Positions 4,543 through 16,798 of a stretch of 33,093 bases of DNA are shown piece by piece. Made by a program: the position numbers and the translations under genes. The stretch is taken from contig DATEAH010000011.1 in NCBI GenBank assembly GCA_035288465.1, forward strand, positions 1-33,093, read 5' to 3'. Source of the stretch: Patescibacteria group bacterium (GTDB taxonomy: Bacteria > Patescibacteriota > UBA1384 > DATEAH01). Numbering within the stretch: position 1 is the stretch's first letter; every line of letters begins with the position of its first letter. A model generated the notes under the pieces. The model saw only the letters and a list, made by a program, of their open reading frames with translations. It did no database searches and was not told the origin of the DNA.

Positions 4543-5079
4543 ATGGGACAGCAAAAATCAATCATAATTTCTGGGGAACCAGAAACACTCCACAATAAAG
4601 AGCAAAATATTTCCACTGAATCTAAAATTAAAGATGCTAAAATTACCAAGAAATTCCAAAAAGCTGAAAATTATGAAGATAAAGCCAAAAAAGTTAAACC
4701 GAAAAAGAAAAAATCTCGCAGCCAAAAATATTTAGAAAGCAAAAAACAACTCCCAGCCCGCATGGTTGAGTCACCAAAAGAAGCGATTGAGATGATTAGG
4801 TCAATCTCGAAAGCGAATTTTCCAGAAAGTTTGGAAGCTCATTTTGCAATGAATTTTAAAAAAAGCGATAAAAAAGACTTTGGAAAGTTAAAAATTGATA
4901 ATCTTAATATTATTCATGTTAAAATTGGCAAAACTTCCGAAAGTGAAGATGATTTGTTAGCCAGCTATAATAAAATTTTTCAAGAAATCAAATCAAATCG
5001 CGCCACCGCCAAAAAAGGGGTTTTAAAAAGTATTGCCTTATGTTCCACAATGAGTCCATCAGTTAAGATTAAATTATAA
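4543..5079 (+). CDS. uL1-like ribosomal protein lacking domain II
   Basis: This 178-residue protein matches both halves of domain I of ribosomal protein L1, with the inserted domain II absent. Residues 1-60 are a charged, Lys-rich tail. Residues about 61-110 resemble the L1 N-terminal half (SRSQKYLESKK, PKEAIEMIRSISKANFPESL). Residues about 120-178 resemble the C-terminal half: IIHVKIGK corresponds to the IIHTTIGK segment of E. coli L1, and ALCSTMSPSVKI to its SISTTMGAGVAV end. The join at about 110-120 skips the roughly 90 residues that form domain II in E. coli L1 (234 residues). Its place directly before rplJ-rplL is where rplA normally lies (rplK-rplA-rplJ-rplL), although pth rather than rplK is upstream. 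AAGGAG precedes the ATG. In the family, domain I carries the main rRNA contacts of the L1 stalk, so RNA binding may persist. The alternative is an L1-derived protein with another role. Confidence 0.75.
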   Translation: MGQQKSIIISGEPETLHNKEQNISTESKIKDAKITKKFQKAENYEDKAKKVKPKKKKSRSQKYLESKKQLPARMVESPKEAIEMIRSISKANFPESLEAHFAMNFKKSDKKDFGKLKIDNLNIIHVKIGKTSESEDDLLASYNKIFQEIKSNRATAKKGVLKSIALCSTMSPSVKIKL

Positions 5080-5083
5080 CTTC

Positions 5084-5111
5084 TTGACATTAAAATATTA
5101 TTTGATATAAT
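5084..5111 (+). promoter_or_regulatory. Strong promoter for rplJ-rplL
   Basis: TTGACA (5084-5089), a 16-base spacer, then TATAAT (5106-5111). Both hexamers match the consensus. It begins four bases after the uL1-like stop codon and drives the structured leader that follows. Confidence 0.85.
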
Positions 5112-5118
5112 ATAAATA

Positions 5119-5231
5119 CCAAAGACAGCAGGCGATTTAATCATAATAGCCCCAAGGCTTCCTGCCGAGGTAAAAAATTGAAATTAATTTACAAACTCAA
5201 TTTTTCTGTCTTTGGACAGAATTTTTTATTT
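5119..5231 (+). ncRNA. L10 leader (ribosomal protein autoregulatory RNA) with attenuator
   Basis: The rplJ 5' UTR has the L10-leader plan. A basal stem pairs CCAAAGACAG (5119-5128) with CTGTCTTTGG (5206-5215), and an inner stem pairs GCAGG (5128-5132) with CCTGC (5161-5165), the latter inside the characteristic CCTGCCGAGG. A further hairpin pairs AAAAATTGA (5173-5181) with TCAATTTTT (5197-5205). A competing terminator uses TCTGTC (5205-5210) with GACAGA (5215-5220) followed by a T-run at 5222-5227, and is mutually exclusive with the basal stem. In known L10 leaders the RNA mimics the 23S rRNA site of the L10(L12) complex, and binding represses rplJL. Transcription attenuation is the mechanism inferred here. 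Confidence 0.8.
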
Positions 5232-5240
5232 AGGATCTAA

Positions 5241-7563: not shown

Positions 7564-7593
7564 TTGACAAACACGAAAATTTTATGATATAGT
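7564..7593 (+). promoter_or_regulatory. Promoter of small gene 7634-7990
   Basis: TTGACA (7564-7569) followed by TATAGT (7588-7593, spacer 18) or GATATA (7586-7591, spacer 16). The predicted transcript start near 7600 falls after ATG 7598, which argues for the downstream TTG start. Confidence 0.65.
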
Positions 7594-8085: not shown

Positions 8086-8115
8086 TTGACAAACATAGGA
8101 CTTTTGTGTTAGAAT
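8086..8115 (+). promoter_or_regulatory. Promoter of small gene 8158-8526
   Basis: TTGACA (8086-8091), an 18-base spacer, then TAGAAT (8110-8115). The -35 is embedded in ATTGACAAACA, the same word found at the promoter starting at 7564. Confidence 0.6.
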
Positions 8116-8880: not shown

Positions 8881-9264
8881 ATGACTTATCAACAACCTTT
8901 AGAACAAAGGCCTGGCTCTCACCTTCCAGATCAAACAGTCCCAACAACTTCTGAAAAAGAAGCTACTTCGGGATTACCAACATCTAAAGCTGGACTTGAA
9001 AACGAAACCTTACTGCAAATTATCGACGAGGAAGTTAAACGTACTGATCAAAATATCCCAGCCGCAGAACGAGAAGCGGTTGAAGTCCCTAAAATTAACC
9101 CCGAAGATGCCCTAATATTAACTCCTCCAAAACCTACTTCGTATCATCTCAAAACTGTTCAATCCTTAGAAGCTAAATTATGTCCAGGCATCGAACAAGA
9201 TGAGGGTGGCGCCATTGCTACGGCAATTCAAGCTGTAAATGCGGAAATTGAACAAAGCGACTAA
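8881..9264 (+). CDS. Hypothetical acidic protein (127 aa) upstream of VirD4-like ATPase
   Basis: Not recognised. The protein is hydrophilic and acidic, with a disordered N-terminal third rich in Pro, Ser, Thr and Gln, then helical segments (ETLLQIIDEEVKR, YHLKTVQSLEAKL, GGAIATAIQAVNAEIEQ). No signal peptide or membrane segment is seen. It follows a good promoter by about 45 bases, but only a weak and distant AGGTGG precedes the ATG. The VirD4-like ATPase starts 20 bases after its stop, so it probably leads that transcription unit and may be an accessory protein of that system. Confidence 0.6.
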   Translation: MTYQQPLEQRPGSHLPDQTVPTTSEKEATSGLPTSKAGLENETLLQIIDEEVKRTDQNIPAAEREAVEVPKINPEDALILTPPKPTSYHLKTVQSLEAKLCPGIEQDEGGAIATAIQAVNAEIEQSD

Positions 9265-9284
9265 AATAAAAATAAAAGGCAAAA

Positions 9285-11795
9285 ATGAACGATTCATTTA
9301 TCTCGACAATTATCGACAAACCAATGATTACTGTCCTTGGCATTACCGCTCTGGCAACTCTCATCGGTCTTTTTTTAATCTGGATAATTTATCATCTCAT
9401 CAAATCCAGCCTTATTGGTAAACATGATAATGAACAAGTTTTAAACCGCAAAATGATGCTAATTAAAGTCTCCAAAATCTCAGGCAAAAAAGAAGAAGAA
9501 ATTAGAGATTCACGAGAATTGGCGTCTTTATTCGCGGGTGTTATGGATCAGCTCTATTCCTCTTTATATAGTATTTATTCATCTGAATTCAAAAACAAAG
9601 TTCTTGGCCAACCGCATTTAACCTTTGAAATGGCAACGGTTGGTGGTGAAATTTGCTTTTTTGTTTCATGTCCCAAAGAACTCATCAGCTTAGTCGAGAA
9701 ACAAATTCATGGCCAATACCCCTCAGCCTCGATTGAAATTGTGCCTTATTTTAATCCCTTTAAATCTGGTCAGAAAATTGCCACGGCTAAATTAGGTTTG
9801 GCTAAGAATTTTGTCTATCCAATCAAAACTTACCACCAAATGGAATCTGACTCTCTTGCCGCACTTTCTAATACTTTTTCTAAAATTGGCGAAGATAATG
9901 CCGCAATTGTCCAAATTGTTTTTCGACCTCAAAACAATGATTGGCGAAAAACCTGTGAAAGTACGATTAAAAATCTGCGAACTGGCAAAAAATCAAGTTC
10001 AGCATCATTTTTAAAAGATTTGGGCAACACTGTCGCTGGAAAACCGCTCCAACCAGAAAATAAAAGTTCAGGCTCTGTAGAACCTCTTTCTCCAGTTATT
10101 GAAACGCAAATTAAAGGTATTCAAGAAAAAATGTCCAAGGTTGGCTTTAGTACCAAAATTCGAGTTTTATGTGCTTCTCCAAACCAACAAGAATCAGAAG
10201 CTCATCTAAATAACGTTTTAAGTTCTTTCGCACAACTAACCAACCCAGAATTAAATGGTTTTAAAAAGCTTAAGATAAAAAATAAAGCAAAATTTCTTAC
10301 TGATTTTATTTTTAGACGTTTTGGCGATCCGAAATTTGCTCAAATTTTAAATACCGCGGAATTAGCGACGATTTTTCATTTTCCAAATAAAGGCATTGAG
10401 ACTCCAAATATTAATTGGTTGTCTGCCAAAGATGCGCCCGCCCCTTCAAATCTTCCAGTTGATGGCACTGTTTTAGGAGAATCTATTTTCCGTGGTGAGC
10501 GGAAAGAAGTCAAAATTACTAATGACGACCGGCGCCGACATCTTTATGCAATTGGGAAAACCGGTGTTGGCAAAACCACTTTATTCGTATCTATGGCAAT
10601 CTCTGACATCAGGGCCGGCAAAGGAATTTGTTATATTGATCCCCATGGAGATGCTATTAGCGAAATCTTACCAAAAATTCCCGAAAATCGTCTTGACGAT
10701 GTGATTATTTTTAATCCCGCCGATACGGCGCGTCCTTTAGGATTAAATTTACTCGAAGCTGCCACGCCTGAACAACGTGATTTTATCGTTCAAGAAGCGA
10801 TTCAAATTTTTTATAAATTATTTGATCCGACTCGAATTGGTATTGTTGGTCCGCAATGGGAACACTGGATGAGAAATGCCTCGTTAACTTTAATGTCAGA
10901 TCCAGAAGGCGGGACTTTAATTGAAATTCCACGGCTTTTTGTTGATAAAGGTTTTCAAGACGAAAAAGTAAAACACCTCCATGATCCGCAAGTTAAAGAA
11001 TTTTGGGAGAAACAAATTGCGCAAACTGCTGATTTTCATAAATCTGAAATGTTAAATTATTTTACCTCAAAATTCGGCCGTTTTATCACCAATGAAATGA
11101 TGAGAAATATTATCGGTCAAACCAAATCAGCTTTTGATTTTAGACAGGTTATGGACGAAGGCAAGATTTTATTAATCAATTTATCAAAAGGTATGATTGG
11201 TGAAGTAAATTCGAATTTATTGGGAATGATTTGTGTGGCTAAAATTCAAATGGCAGCCATGAGCCGAGCAAATGTTCCAGAAAATCAACGTAAAGATTTT
11301 TATCTATATGTTGATGAGTTTCAGAATTTTGCCACGGAAAATTTTGCGCAAATTCTTTCCGAGGCTCGAAAATATCATCTTAGTTTAAATTTAACTAATC
11401 AATATATTGCCCAGCTTGAAGAACCAATTCGAGATTCAATTTTTGGTAATGTTGGTACTCTAATTAGTTTTCGAGTTGGTGCTGCCGATGCAGATACTTT
11501 AACCAAAGAATTTACCCCGGTTTTTGATCAAGAAGATTTAATTAATATTGATAAATTTCACGCATACTTAAAATTATTAATCAATGGTGTCGCCTCGAAG
11601 CCTTTTAGTATGGCGACTTTTCAAGATCAACATATTCCAAGTCTTCAAATCGCACAGCACGTTGTCAATCTTTCGAGAGATAAATATGGAAAAAGTAAAG
11701 AGCAGGTTGCCGATGAAATCTTTAAACGCGCCAGGCTCGACAGTACTGCTCAACAATTAACCGGTTTGGAGGCAAACTCAGAAACCAAGCTGTAA
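9285..11795 (+). CDS. VirD4/TraG-like type IV secretion ATPase, copy 1
   Basis: Membrane-anchored P-loop ATPase of the VirD4/TraG/HerA group, 836 residues. One N-terminal membrane helix (about 12-37) is followed by a roughly 380-residue domain of unknown role shared with copy 2 (YPIKTYHQMESD, IKGIQEKMSKVGF, FHFPNKGIETPN). The motor follows: Walker A GKTGVGKTT (424-432), the YIDPHGD motif (D452) and Walker B YLYVDEFQNFA (D677-E678), with NVGTLISFRVG after it. Relatives pump DNA or protein through conjugation or secretion channels as hexamers. No relaxase, pilin or VirB-type channel gene lies nearby, so the substrate is unknown. It is colinear with the gene at 13532 over nearly its whole length. 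The start follows AAAGGC. Confidence 0.87.
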   Translation: MNDSFISTIIDKPMITVLGITALATLIGLFLIWIIYHLIKSSLIGKHDNEQVLNRKMMLIKVSKISGKKEEEIRDSRELASLFAGVMDQLYSSLYSIYSSEFKNKVLGQPHLTFEMATVGGEICFFVSCPKELISLVEKQIHGQYPSASIEIVPYFNPFKSGQKIATAKLGLAKNFVYPIKTYHQMESDSLAALSNTFSKIGEDNAAIVQIVFRPQNNDWRKTCESTIKNLRTGKKSSSASFLKDLGNTVAGKPLQPENKSSGSVEPLSPVIETQIKGIQEKMSKVGFSTKIRVLCASPNQQESEAHLNNVLSSFAQLTNPELNGFKKLKIKNKAKFLTDFIFRRFGDPKFAQILNTAELATIFHFPNKGIETPNINWLSAKDAPAPSNLPVDGTVLGESIFRGERKEVKITNDDRRRHLYAIGKTGVGKTTLFVSMAISDIRAGKGICYIDPHGDAISEILPKIPENRLDDVIIFNPADTARPLGLNLLEAATPEQRDFIVQEAIQIFYKLFDPTRIGIVGPQWEHWMRNASLTLMSDPEGGTLIEIPRLFVDKGFQDEKVKHLHDPQVKEFWEKQIAQTADFHKSEMLNYFTSKFGRFITNEMMRNIIGQTKSAFDFRQVMDEGKILLINLSKGMIGEVNSNLLGMICVAKIQMAAMSRANVPENQRKDFYLYVDEFQNFATENFAQILSEARKYHLSLNLTNQYIAQLEEPIRDSIFGNVGTLISFRVGAADADTLTKEFTPVFDQEDLINIDKFHAYLKLLINGVASKPFSMATFQDQHIPSLQIAQHVVNLSRDKYGKSKEQVADEIFKRARLDSTAQQLTGLEANSETKL

Positions 11796-11832
11796 AATAA
11801 AATTGAAAATTCACTGTAGGAGGTGAACAAAA

Positions 11833-12378
11833 ATGACAAAATCAAAATTTGAAGAGATTAATTTTTTATTGCATCAAGCAAATTTACAAATTAATCTCGC
11901 ATCTCAATTGCTTGAAGAATTAATTGGGCAAAAATCATCTAAAAAATCTCAAAAAACTAAATTGACTAAAGATTTGGATCCGAAAATTTTATTATCAGAC
12001 CCAAATGGAAAAGTGATCGAGGGTTTCTTTAACGGCGAAGGCATGATTGATTCAGAAGGGAAAAAATATCCAGTTCCAGCCAATTATGCCTCAAAATCAA
12101 AATTAGTCTCAGGTGATGCGCTAAAATTGACTATTTTGCAAAATGGCACCTTTATTTTCAAACAAACCGGACCAATCGATCGAGATCGGCGAGTCGGCAT
12201 TCTGAAAATAAACAAAAGTGGTAAACCCACTGTAATCACTGAAAAAAAAGATAACTATGAGGTTTTACCAGCCTCAATTACGTATTTTAAGGCTAAAACT
12301 GGTGATAAACTTACTATTTTAGTTCCTAAAGATAAAAAGTCTAAATGGGCGGCGGTGGAAAGCATTTTACCAAATTAA
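11833..12378 (+). CDS. Hypothetical coiled-coil plus beta-domain protein (181 aa)
   Basis: Not assigned to a known family. It has the best ribosome binding site in the window (AGGAGGTGA, 11818-11826), so it is probably highly translated. Residues 1-33 are a helix likely to form a coiled coil (LLHQANLQINLASQLLEELI). A Lys/Ser-rich linker follows (34-48), then a beta-rich domain (about 50-181) with GKVIEGFFNGEGMI, KYPVPANYASKSKLVSGD and TGDKLTILVPKD, which could be a small barrel. It sits 37 bases after copy 1 of the VirD4-like ATPase and is probably co-transcribed, suggesting a helper or regulator of that block. Confidence 0.75.
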   Translation: MTKSKFEEINFLLHQANLQINLASQLLEELIGQKSSKKSQKTKLTKDLDPKILLSDPNGKVIEGFFNGEGMIDSEGKKYPVPANYASKSKLVSGDALKLTILQNGTFIFKQTGPIDRDRRVGILKINKSGKPTVITEKKDNYEVLPASITYFKAKTGDKLTILVPKDKKSKWAAVESILPN

Positions 12379-12401
12379 TTAGAAAATTTAATTAATTATG
12401 T

Positions 12402-12430
12402 TTGACAAATAATATTTTTAATGCTATAAT
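12402..12430 (+). promoter_or_regulatory. Full-consensus extended -10 promoter for the sigma4-HARE gene
   Basis: TTGACA (12402-12407), exactly 17 bases, TATAAT (12425-12430), with TG at 12422-12423 forming an extended -10. This is the closest match to the ideal bacterial promoter in the window. Confidence 0.88.
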
Positions 12431-12480
12431 ATAAAGTAAATTAGCTTAAATTTCAAAGGGTGGGCCAGAAAGAATTTATC

Positions 12481-13509
12481 ATGGAGAAATTAGATTTAAA
12501 CCAAAAAATTTTTGAAAATTTAAATTTACTCAAAGGTCGAGAGCAAGAAATTTTAATTTCCAGATTTGGCTTAACTAACGAGGCGAACAAAACTCTCCAG
12601 GCAATTGGCCGAAAATACGGCATTACTCGTGAAAGAGTTCGTCAAATTATAAATTTTAGCTTTAAAAAACTAAAAAGAATTAAAAATTTAGAATTTGAAA
12701 AGTTAGCTCATAAAATTGAAAAAATTATTGATTCCCAAGGAGGTTTAATCGCTGAAAATCAATTAGCCTCGCAAATTTTTCCAAACGCGGCTACAAAACA
12801 GGTTGGTGCGGTTGAAATTATTTGCCGAATTAATCCTAACTTGATTAAAATCAAAAAAACCCCGCAAACCGAGGCTTTTTGGACCACTGGTAAAATTAAA
12901 TTGGCAAAATTACTAAAGATTAACAAAACTTTAATCGAACTGCTCAACGAAGCTAAAAAAACCCAAATTATCGAAAATCTGGCTAAACTCTATTTTACTA
13001 AAACTAAACTGAACCTTTCACCAACGATCATTAAATCGATTGCCTCGGGCTCAAATAAATTAATTTTATGCCCTAATAATACGATTGGTCTTTCATTTTG
13101 GCCAGAAATTAATCCTAAAAATACCCGTGATAAAATCTTTTACGTTTTAAATCACGCTCAAAAACCTTTGCATTTTATTGAAATTACACAACAGATTTCT
13201 AATAAAAAATTTTCAACTAAAAATCCAACTCAAACCACGGTTCATAATGAACTAATTTCTGATGATCGGTTTGTTTTAATTGGTCGTGGAATTTATGCTT
13301 TGAAAAAATGGGGTTATGAACCAGGCACTGTTTTTGACTTGATTAGAAAAATTCTTAAAAATAAACCCAAAGGTTTAACTCAAGAACAAATTTGCGAACA
13401 AATTTTACAAAAACGAATTATTTCTAAAAATACGATTCTTATGAACTTAAACTCACACCAAGAATTTATTAAAAATAAAACCGGCCGTTGGCAAATTGCT
13501 CGAAAATAA
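12481..13509 (+). CDS. Sigma-70 region 4-like / HARE-HTH transcription regulator
   Basis: Residues about 18-65 match sigma-70 region 4: GREQEILISRFGL, then TLQAIGRKYGITRERVRQI, the helix-turn-helix that reads the -35 element. There is no region 2, so it is not a complete sigma factor. Around 70-140 is another winged-helix-like part. Residues about 215-280 match the HARE-HTH domain (RDKIFYVLNHAQKPLHFIEI, TVHNELISDDRFVLIGRG, YALKKWGY). The last 60 residues form one more helical DNA-binding-like unit. HARE-HTH domains occur in the RNA polymerase delta subunit, restriction enzymes and chromatin proteins. ATG 12481 is preferred over in-frame GTG 12460, which abuts AAAGG with no spacing, but this is uncertain. 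It lies between the two VirD4-like ATPases and 22 bases before the second. Confidence 0.85.
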   Translation: MEKLDLNQKIFENLNLLKGREQEILISRFGLTNEANKTLQAIGRKYGITRERVRQIINFSFKKLKRIKNLEFEKLAHKIEKIIDSQGGLIAENQLASQIFPNAATKQVGAVEIICRINPNLIKIKKTPQTEAFWTTGKIKLAKLLKINKTLIELLNEAKKTQIIENLAKLYFTKTKLNLSPTIIKSIASGSNKLILCPNNTIGLSFWPEINPKNTRDKIFYVLNHAQKPLHFIEITQQISNKKFSTKNPTQTTVHNELISDDRFVLIGRGIYALKKWGYEPGTVFDLIRKILKNKPKGLTQEQICEQILQKRIISKNTILMNLNSHQEFIKNKTGRWQIARK

Positions 13510-13531
13510 TTAAGATTTGGGAGGGAAATTA

Positions 13532-16468
13532 ATGAATCTATTGTCTCCGTTTGAAAACTTCTTAAATACGACTAATTCAACTTCAATGTTGTCCCTCTTT
13601 TTTATAATTCTAACGTATTTATTGATTATAATTGGAATAATTTTCGTCCTTTCAATAATTATTAAAATTATTCGGACTAAAAAACAAAAAATCTGGGTAA
13701 ATGATCAAAAATACCACTTACTTTTAATTTCAGTTCCCAAGGATAATGAAAAATCCCCCTTAGCTGCTGAACAAATGTTTGCGGCTTTACATGGAATTTA
13801 TAAAACCGCGAAAGAACTTAATGCGGAAGGTGCAATTCAAGATCATTTATCTTTTGAGATTGTTTCAATTGACAAATATATTCGTTTTTATGTTTATGTG
13901 CCGGCTGGCATTAAAGAATTTGTCAAGGGTCAAATTTATGCTCAATATCCAAGTGTTGACATTGAAGAGGTTGAAGATTACACCCAAGAAATTAAAGATA
14001 AAGGCTTGATTTCCGCTTCAACTGAGCTCGGAACTACCAAATCTGATTGCTACCCAATAAAAACCTTTCCAAATTTTGAAGTTGATCCCTTGGCTGGCAT
14101 TACGGGTGCCCTAACTGAAGTTGGACCCGGAGATCAAATTTGGATTCAAATTTTAACCAGACCAGTCTCTGATGAATGGCAAGCGAAAGGTATTACCTTA
14201 GTTGATAATATTAGAACCGGCAAAGCTGATACCATTTCTCCTTTCAAACAAGTTGGAAAATCATTTCTAAAACTTATCGGGGAATTAGCCCTAACCGCGG
14301 CCCAACCACAAACGGCCGCCGATCATCGCAAAGCTCAAATTACAGCCGAAGAAAAACCACAATTGCCAGCTCCGGTTGAAGCAGGCTTGAAAGGCATCGA
14401 AGAAAAAATTACTAAATTAGGTTTTGAAACTAAAATTCGAATTTTTGTTTGGGCAAACGATGTCACCTCAGCGCGCAGTAAATTACATACTACTATCGGT
14501 GCTTTTAAACAATTTAATACGACTAATTTAAGTGGTTTTGTTTCGGGACCGGTGAAAATTTCTGATGAAAAATTATTAAATTCATATCGAGCGAGAATGT
14601 TTCCAGAATCAACCTATATTTTTAATATTGAGGAATTAGCCTCGGTTTTTCACCTTCCTTCAGTTTCCGTAGAAACTCCAAATATTGTCTGGGCTGGTAG
14701 TAAAAAAGGCGAACCACCGGCTAATTTACCAATTGCTGGTACCGTCCCAGAGGATGAATTGGTTATTTTCGCTAAAACTGATTTTCGAAATTCCGCCACT
14801 GATTTTGGTCTAAAACTTGATGATCGACGTCGACATCTCTACACTATTGGTAAAACCGGCGTTGGTAAAACTACCATGCTTGAAACCATGGTAATTTCTG
14901 ATATTCGCGATGGTAAAGGGGTTGCCGTTGTCGATCCGCATGGTGATTTTGTCGAAAGAATTTTAAATTTTATCCCCGCCGAAAGAGTCAAAGACGTGGT
15001 CCTTTTTGACCCCTCCGATATTAACCATCCGGTTGGTTTTAATTTGCTTGAAAATGTCAGTCCTGATCTAAAAAATATTGTTACTTCTGGTTTGGTCGGA
15101 ATTTTCCAAAAAATTTGGGCTTACACTTGGGGTCCAAGATTAGAGCACATCTTAAGAAATGCGGTCATGGCTTTATTGGATTATCCAGATTCGACAATTT
15201 TAGGTATTTTAAAAATGCTTAACGATAAAAATTTTCGTCATAAAGTCATGGACCAAATTAAAGACCCGGTGATTCGTGATTTCTGGGTTGAAGAATTTGA
15301 AAATTATAATGACCGTCTTCGCTCTGAAGCGGTGGCGCCAATTCAAAATAAGGTCGGCCAATTTGTTTCTTCACAAACAATCCGCAATATCATTGGTCAA
15401 CCCAAAAGCACCATTGACATGAAAGATATTATGGATAATAAAAAGATTCTTTTAATTAATTTATCCAAAGGTAAAATCGGCGAAGATAATTCCGCCTTAT
15501 TGGGCGCGATGTTAATCACCAAAATTCAACTTACTGCCATGGCCAGAGCTTCAATCCCCGAAGAGGATCGTGTCGATTTTTATTTATACGTTGATGAGTT
15601 TCAAAATTTCGCCACCGAATCTTTTGCGACTATCTTTTCTGAAGCTCGAAAATATAAATTAAATATTGCGGTTGCCAACCAATATATCGCCCAGATGCCA
15701 GAAGAGGTTCGAGAAGCGGTTTTTGGCAACGTTGGCACGATTATTAGTTTTCGCGTGGGTGCTTCTGACGCCCCTTTTTTAGCAAAAGAATATTCACCAG
15801 TTTTTGAAGAAAGTGATTTAGTTAATCTTGATAAATATCATATTTATATTAAAATGTCGATTGAGGGCGTGACTTGCCCGGCATTTTCCGCAATCACAAT
15901 TGCCTTACCAGATGAACCCGAAGGCTTTAAGGAACAGGCGATGGCCGCTTCCCGGACTAAGTATGGCAGCGACCGAGCAAAAGTCGAAGAATTGATTGCT
16001 GAATGGTCCGCAACTGCTTCAAAACCCTCACCAAGAACTGATTCTGAATCACATAATAATTTTCAAAACCCAGCTAATCCAAACGCGATTTCATTTTCAA
16101 GTTCCGATAGAGGATCATCCTCAGAAAATCAACTTTCAAAATTAAAAGGCCCCTCAGCCATCATCCGTGTTGGCTCACAAAAATACGCCGAATATACTGA
16201 TCAAAAAAACGATCATTGGTATCAAAAAATGGCAAATTCCGAGTCTGGTGAATCTGAAGAAAATAATCAAAAAACTGAAAATAATACCCCCGCTTCAAAT
16301 CCCCAAACCCAATCAGAAAATAAACTAACACCACAAATTATTGATCTAAATCAAAACATTGACGAATCAAAACATAATTTAAAGGATGAGGATCTCAAAA
16401 ATAATCATCACTCCAAAGTTGATAATTTAATTGAACTCAAAGAAGGCGAGATAATTGACCTAAATTAA
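13532..16468 (+). CDS. VirD4/TraG-like type IV secretion ATPase, copy 2
   Basis: Paralogue of the ATPase at 9285, 978 residues from ATG 13532. GGAGG at 13520-13524 sets this start; an in-frame TTG at 13517 overlaps that site. A long membrane segment (about 17-47) precedes the shared N-terminal domain (YPIKTFPNFEVD, LKGIEEKITKLGF, FHLPSVSVETPN). Walker A is GKTGVGKTT (440-448), then VVDPHGD and Walker B YLYVDEFQNFA (D688-E689), followed by NVGTIISFRVG. It differs from copy 1 by a roughly 150-residue low-complexity tail (from about 830) rich in Asn, Ser, Lys and Glu, which carries the word IIDLN twice, once at the very end. The two proteins may form a mixed hexamer or serve two substrates. No channel genes are adjacent. 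Confidence 0.88.
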   Translation: MNLLSPFENFLNTTNSTSMLSLFFIILTYLLIIIGIIFVLSIIIKIIRTKKQKIWVNDQKYHLLLISVPKDNEKSPLAAEQMFAALHGIYKTAKELNAEGAIQDHLSFEIVSIDKYIRFYVYVPAGIKEFVKGQIYAQYPSVDIEEVEDYTQEIKDKGLISASTELGTTKSDCYPIKTFPNFEVDPLAGITGALTEVGPGDQIWIQILTRPVSDEWQAKGITLVDNIRTGKADTISPFKQVGKSFLKLIGELALTAAQPQTAADHRKAQITAEEKPQLPAPVEAGLKGIEEKITKLGFETKIRIFVWANDVTSARSKLHTTIGAFKQFNTTNLSGFVSGPVKISDEKLLNSYRARMFPESTYIFNIEELASVFHLPSVSVETPNIVWAGSKKGEPPANLPIAGTVPEDELVIFAKTDFRNSATDFGLKLDDRRRHLYTIGKTGVGKTTMLETMVISDIRDGKGVAVVDPHGDFVERILNFIPAERVKDVVLFDPSDINHPVGFNLLENVSPDLKNIVTSGLVGIFQKIWAYTWGPRLEHILRNAVMALLDYPDSTILGILKMLNDKNFRHKVMDQIKDPVIRDFWVEEFENYNDRLRSEAVAPIQNKVGQFVSSQTIRNIIGQPKSTIDMKDIMDNKKILLINLSKGKIGEDNSALLGAMLITKIQLTAMARASIPEEDRVDFYLYVDEFQNFATESFATIFSEARKYKLNIAVANQYIAQMPEEVREAVFGNVGTIISFRVGASDAPFLAKEYSPVFEESDLVNLDKYHIYIKMSIEGVTCPAFSAITIALPDEPEGFKEQAMAASRTKYGSDRAKVEELIAEWSATASKPSPRTDSESHNNFQNPANPNAISFSSSDRGSSSENQLSKLKGPSAIIRVGSQKYAEYTDQKNDHWYQKMANSESGESEENNQKTENNTPASNPQTQSENKLTPQIIDLNQNIDESKHNLKDEDLKNNHHSKVDNLIELKEGEIIDLN

Positions 16469-16769: not shown

Positions 16770-16798
16770 TTGACAAATTCAATTTAATTTGTTATACT
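16770..16798 (+). promoter_or_regulatory. Promoter of the RRM gene
   Basis: TTGACA (16770-16775), a 17-base spacer, then TATACT (16793-16798). The expected transcript start near 16805 leaves a leader of about 115 bases before the ATG. Confidence 0.85.

Follow-up and report, generated by a model that had tools for sequence, protein, structure and literature searches.

The VirD4/TraG/TrwB coupling proteins have many relatives in Patescibacteria: 5,713 VirD4 homologues were found in 2,918 genomes, mostly away from virB4, with 148 of them near that gene, and exaptation has been raised (Quinonero-Coronel et al. 2025, PMC12102498). In S. epibionticum, a cultivated Saccharibacterium, the type IV secretion system (T4SS) is essential and the VirD4 homologue is not (PMC12102498), and this essential T4SS was reported to have no recognisable coupling or relaxase proteins (Wang et al., PMC10633639). 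A different pair of ATPases, CedB and CedD of the Sulfolobales, are paralogues with VirB4-like N-terminal domains, both of which are required for DNA import (PMC11868833). Here we describe two paralogous patescibacterial ATPases, A and B, that very likely belong among the coupling-protein homologues of Quinonero-Coronel et al., which number about two per genome and mostly lie away from virB4. The abundance of VirD4 in the phylum is thus already published; the main text of that paper describes no division into two clades, no N-terminal domain and no linked P3 or P4 gene, and none of the main texts searched was found to describe the A/B clade split, the predicted chimeric architecture or the linkage of P3 and P4.

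The window analysed is a 33,093-nucleotide stretch of a patescibacterial contig, in which A and B lie in an array of five genes on the forward strand. P1 (8881-9264) encodes a 127-aa low-complexity acidic protein with no family match; a small disordered protein (97 to 141 aa) lies directly 5' of A in most sampled relatives of the class, and in these P1 equivalents the position is kept and the sequence is not (loci L038, L043, L044, L045, L047, L048 and L049). A (9285-11795) encodes an 836-aa membrane-anchored ATPase made up of an N-terminal helix, a predicted VirB4-like domain extending to about residue 417 (the N-domain) and a VirD4/TraG-type motor with Walker A at 424 and Walker B at 675. 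The Shine-Dalgarno sequence AGGAGGTG (11818-11825, forward strand), recognised from its letters, ends 7 nt 5' of the ATG of P3 (11833-12378), which encodes a 181-aa protein with a coiled-coil-like helix followed by two tandem OB-like folds. The gap between P3 and P4 holds a promoter-like TTGACA-17-TATAAT element of sigma-70 type on the same strand (12402-12430; 12/12 positions, extended -10), and P4 (12460-13509), encoding a 349-aa putative transcription factor, lies directly 5' of B (13517-16468). B, 983 aa long, is a paralogue of A that shares its N-domain and motor (Walker A at 445, Walker B at 691) and ends in a long C-terminal tail of low complexity. The two proteins are 42% identical over residues 86-814 of A (E 6e-176) and are the sole two copies in this 751-kb, 97%-complete genome, and across 50 A-type and 30 B-type proteins neither the lysine of Walker A nor the DE of Walker B varies (at least 97% of rows). 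The preliminary description of the locus, as two long P-loop ATPases with a common N-domain separated by a 181-aa protein with an ideal ribosome binding site and by a sigma4-HARE protein, was therefore accurate, and the catalytic motor residues are intact in both copies. The array is far beyond chance, since related genomes repeat the same genes in the same order and orientation. Upstream, the window also encodes a 696-aa surface protein with DUF11-type repeats, an LPPTGG end and a hydrophobic helix, resembling a sortase-anchored adhesin (506-2596); a 178-aa open reading frame with a lysine-rich N terminus and, at its C terminus, only an L1-like stretch (PF00687, residues 116-172), which would be ribosomal protein L1 in divergent or truncated form (4543-5079); and a ribosomal protein L10 leader (RF00557, 78.1 bits; 5101-5237) 5' of rplJ-rplL.

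Across 192 sampled Patescibacteria genomes, B found a match in 189 and A in 188, counts to which each query also contributes by retrieving the other paralogue; P3 and P4 had matches in 135 and 117 of the 192, respectively. Judged by these matches, almost every member of the phylum appears to have one or two such related membrane motors. In a tree of 93 proteins, obtained by a quick IQ-TREE search in which long branches make the placement of the outgroup unreliable, the 50 rows of A type and the 30 of B type each split off with an SH-aLRT value of 99. On this tree, A-like and B-like proteins are two ancient, phylum-wide clades of Patescibacteria, and the split points to an old duplication that left both copies distinct from their mobile relatives. 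The pair is not uniform in its present form: in about two dozen sampled genomes the B match is confined to the motor, within a shorter frame, and at two B loci the N-domain and the motor are adjacent separate genes (L050, 5632-8796; L163, 2188-5175). In eight near-complete genomes (G065, G079, G093, G137, G149, G167, G178 and G190), only the A locus matches the B query over its full length. The broader idea of a whole A subclade without B was rejected, as some of the genomes concerned carry a B-like copy.

Linkage was scored from the matches listed, using the best A and the best B of each genome. On this basis, of the 84 genomes with matches listed for both P4 and B, 77 have P4 immediately 5' of B in the same orientation, and in each of these 77 adjacent cases P4 is the upstream gene; likewise, in all 47 cases in which P3 adjoins A it follows A directly, and where P3 is away from A it is either next to a B-type gene or unlinked. 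A and B themselves are neighbours in 12 of the 14 genomes sampled from their own class and almost nowhere else among the matches listed, and the class loci examined gene by gene show the orders A-P3-P4-B, A-P3-B, A-P4-B and A-B. This pattern marks the four-gene array of the window as a fusion, at the level of the class, of the older units A-P3 and P4-B. The neighbourhood survey proposed in the preliminary description thus found the complete arrangement conserved in the class and its two halves conserved phylum-wide. In other lineages the genes between B and A are housekeeping genes (dnaE, aspS, ligA, gatA and gatB), and we discarded them as a clue to function.

P4 contains a Sigma70_r4 domain (residues 22-72, E 8e-12) and a HARE-HTH domain (226-284, E 3e-9), and a domain search found no sigma region 2, so that P4 is not a normal sigma factor. 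Its promoter-like site has counterparts upstream of its homologues: of 40, 29 have a site scoring 10/12 or more and 13 one scoring 12/12 within about 110 nt, against a mean of about 8.3 for shuffled sequence. Comparable promoters occur elsewhere in the window, among them extended -10 elements scoring 11/12 at 7564-7593, 8086-8115 and 16770-16798, two of which precede small open reading frames without a known family. The constancy with which P4 stays upstream of B is in line with the earlier suggestion that the motors have their own regulator.

The motor domains resemble those of conjugative coupling proteins. All 19 of those searched match TrwB_AAD_bind and TraG-D_C and 16 match T4SS-DNA_transf, while HerA_C matches just 2 of the 19; in profile comparison the PDB structures that come closest are DotL and TrwB, with DotL at E 6e-8 against 0.007 for HerA. 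On these profiles the A/B motor is of the VirD4/TraG type, as had been anticipated, and membership of the HerA family is ruled out. A VirB4-type motor was rejected as well: AAA_10 matches weakly in 4 of 19 and P-loop_TraG is not among the matches, whereas the genome's separate VirB4 matches both. The Walker A and Walker B motifs, between which VirD4-type couplers have an all-alpha domain, are 246 to 251 residues apart, and TrwB_AAD_bind is matched; such a domain may be present here. Hydropathy places an N-terminal membrane helix in 49 of 50 A and 29 of 30 B proteins (residues 13-53 in the A model), a feature shared with VirD4/TraG/TrwB proteins, as is the presence of a T4SS in the genome. Unlike those couplers, A and B have a large VirB4-like N-domain between the membrane helix and the motor, occur as two paralogues, and are encoded away from virB genes in a genome with no relaxase of the families searched. 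Mobile homologues, the DUF87 or 'T4SS DNA transfer' proteins, cover most of the N-domain and motor at 24-32% identity to A and B. On Bacillus and Streptomycetaceae plasmids they are encoded beside Replic_Relax and TcpE, or beside PrgI together with an ATP-binding protein; in patescibacterial elements of the same class Replic_Relax is the immediate neighbour, and TrsD and VirB4 are close by. Those proteins are mobile and have relaxase-like and channel genes adjacent, whereas A and B are core chromosomal paralogues; their relatives in conjugative loci, together with the domain matches, place A and B in the coupling-protein family. Two loci of the same class (L202, 6675-14001; L204, 6301-14001) carry a third VirD4-type copy with Replic_Relax, TrsD and VirB4 and are probable conjugative elements.

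The N-domain points to a different part of the secretion machinery. For the AlphaFold model of A residues 1-417 (pLDDT 85.6), the top 14 structural matches are all VirB4/TrwK of R388 (E 1.7e-6 to 8e-5, probability 1.00 over 404-463 columns, with TM scores of only 0.34-0.43), and VirB4/TrwK accounts for every confident match. Searches of the N-domain profile against Pfam and PDB sequences found no relative, and hhalign comparison with TrsD and VirB4 of the same genome and phylum, for which the target profiles are thin, gave no match, so that the likeness to VirB4 is structural and not sequence-based. Since VirB4/TrwK alone was matched with confidence, A and B look like a VirB4-like platform atop a VirD4-like motor in the predicted model. 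The predicted fold of the N-domain is shared with VirB4/TrwK and with the patescibacterial TrsD and VirB4 pair, from which A and B differ in their VirD4-type motor, in the missing N-domain sequence match and in coexisting with a separate VirB4.

The model of P3 (pLDDT 87.8) consists of a helix (residues 2-32) and two OB-like folds (59-113 and 117-179). Among solved structures its fold is closest to the RNase R cold-shock domains, the coiled-coil/tandem-OB portion of Mpa (a proteasomal ATPase), Rho, IF1 and eIF5A, with a single match under 0.001. In these searches P3 was found only in Patescibacteria, apart from one record titled Nitrospirota that is possibly mis-binned; in the contig profile search, the P3 alignment as query gave matches and A alone gave none. 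A role as strict partner of A was rejected, because P3 adjoins neither the best A nor the best B in at least 60 genomes. In Peregrinibacteria it adjoins FtsQ-like and DUF1290 genes, with a PilT-type ATPase encoded close by, and in a Moranbacterium it is next to a type IV pilin (L218, 8655-13309; L274, 8827-11629; L282, 9899-11141), neighbours that may indicate a role outside secretion. That P3 serves ring motors as an accessory is a guess. We looked for a C-terminal peptide common to the tails of B and P3 and found no clear shared motif.

According to the preliminary description, genes for a relaxase, a pilin or the VirB channel are absent. This is correct for the window but not for the genome, which we searched family by family: another contig (C6) encodes VirB3/PrgI, VirB4, an SLT+M23 protein (VirB1-like), an 899-aa membrane protein that is VirB6-like by a weak match below the cut-off (E 0.006) and four T4SS_pilin proteins, and the two relaxase families searched, Relaxase (PF03432) and Replic_Relax (PF13814), gave no match. 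The search for VirB4 and VirB6 elsewhere in the genome that had been recommended was in this sense productive. The four T4SS_pilin genes are in tandem (G000:C6:72967-74591), about 17 kb from VirB4, and a further contig (C5) encodes ComEC. The source of the DNA, a Patescibacterium, agrees with the suggestion that the organism may depend on a host. A and B are thus encoded neither with a relaxase of these two families nor with the channel, an association that is not absolute for couplers, which often lie far from virB4 (PMC12102498). The array is therefore not a self-contained machine, and the proposal of a dedicated two-motor module is in this respect not supported: channel genes are encoded on another contig, the A-P3 and P4-B units are mostly separate outside the class, P3 frequently shows no linkage to A or B, and P4 is preceded by a promoter-like site of its own.

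From the homology, duplication and linkage of these genes, the presence of T4SS genes in the genome and the absence of the two relaxase families searched, we infer the following scheme, to which we assign about an even chance. A and B, as anciently duplicated, membrane-anchored, coupling-type ATPases, would serve the cell's own relaxase-free T4SS, encoded elsewhere. The VirB4-like N-domain would probably dock on the inner-membrane channel (VirB3/VirB6) and the VirD4/TraG-type motor would probably form a hexameric ring, so that A and B could act as two separately specialised substrate receptors or pumps and not as a stand-alone machine. P4 would be a local transcriptional regulator of the P4-B unit, and P3, with its coiled-coil and tandem OB folds, a candidate accessory of A. 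Counting against this reading are the frequent separation of P3 from A, the fact that just 148 of the 5,713 patescibacterial VirD4 homologues lie near virB4, the dispensability of the S. epibionticum homologue (PMC12102498), and the purely structural likeness of the modelled N-domain to VirB4, with its TM scores of 0.34-0.43.

The main rival is DNA import of the kind carried out by CedB and CedD, in which A and B would be paired ATPases pulling DNA into the cell, perhaps in concert with type IV pili and ComEC. The shared plan of paralogous ATPases with VirB4-like N-domains (PMC11868833), in both cases in a system free of relaxase, makes this a serious competitor, and it accords with the lack of both searched relaxase families, the presence of ComEC and the pilin and PilT neighbours of P3. 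The NCBIfam CedD model does touch B (E 6e-5) and A (E 0.004), but at 21.8 and 15.8 bits, far under its cut-off of 600. Moreover, CedB and CedD are archaeal, have HerA-clade motors and come from genomes without VirB4, whereas this genome has a normal VirB4 T4SS as well as ComEC, so that neither import nor pairing is needed to explain A and B, whose closest mobile relatives lie in conjugative export loci. We consider import unlikely, and the same applies to a more ambitious version of the coupling reading, namely a phylum-wide, vertically inherited two-motor system of chimeric VirB4-VirD4 ATPases that would cooperate with a T4SS bearing pili in passing nucleic acid or protein between epibiont and host, with the B arm under the sigma4-HARE regulator, as a bacterial counterpart of CedB/CedD.

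A HerA- or FtsK-like housekeeping motor acting in chromosome segregation, repair or division, with no part in secretion, would account for the near-universality of A and B, their matches to DUF87 (the HerA central domain), the dnaE, aspS, ligA, gatA and gatB neighbours in other lineages and the FtsQ and DUF1290 genes adjoining P3 in Peregrinibacteria. In almost all members, VirD4-family models nevertheless outscore those of HerA and FtsK, and the almost invariable membrane helix, the VirB4-like N-domain of the structure model and the kinship with conjugative coupling proteins make such a role quite improbable. Least probable, in our view, is the mixed hexamer suggested earlier, a single hetero-oligomeric motor such as a hexamer of A-B dimers, by analogy with the hexamer of dimers formed by VirB4. 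The two genes are adjacent and co-oriented in the class, and their products have the same domain plan and intact catalytic residues; against this, they are usually unlinked and in separate transcription units outside the class, and in vitro CedB and CedD deleted for the membrane helix assembled into homo-oligomers but not into a hetero-oligomer (PMC11868833). The eight near-complete genomes that appear to keep A alone further indicate that A can work without B there, and hence that a mixed ring is not obligatory everywhere.

Under the coupling reading, this near-universal pair of coupling-type motors provides named candidates for the couplers missing from the S. epibionticum T4SS, and the existence of two clades with recurrent partner genes makes the question of T4SS couplers in the phylum testable. 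The B loci at which the N-domain and the motor are encoded by separate genes offer a natural test of whether the domains can act as separate subunits, and the predicted combination of a VirB4-like platform with a VirD4 motor would bear on the divergence of VirB4 and VirD4.
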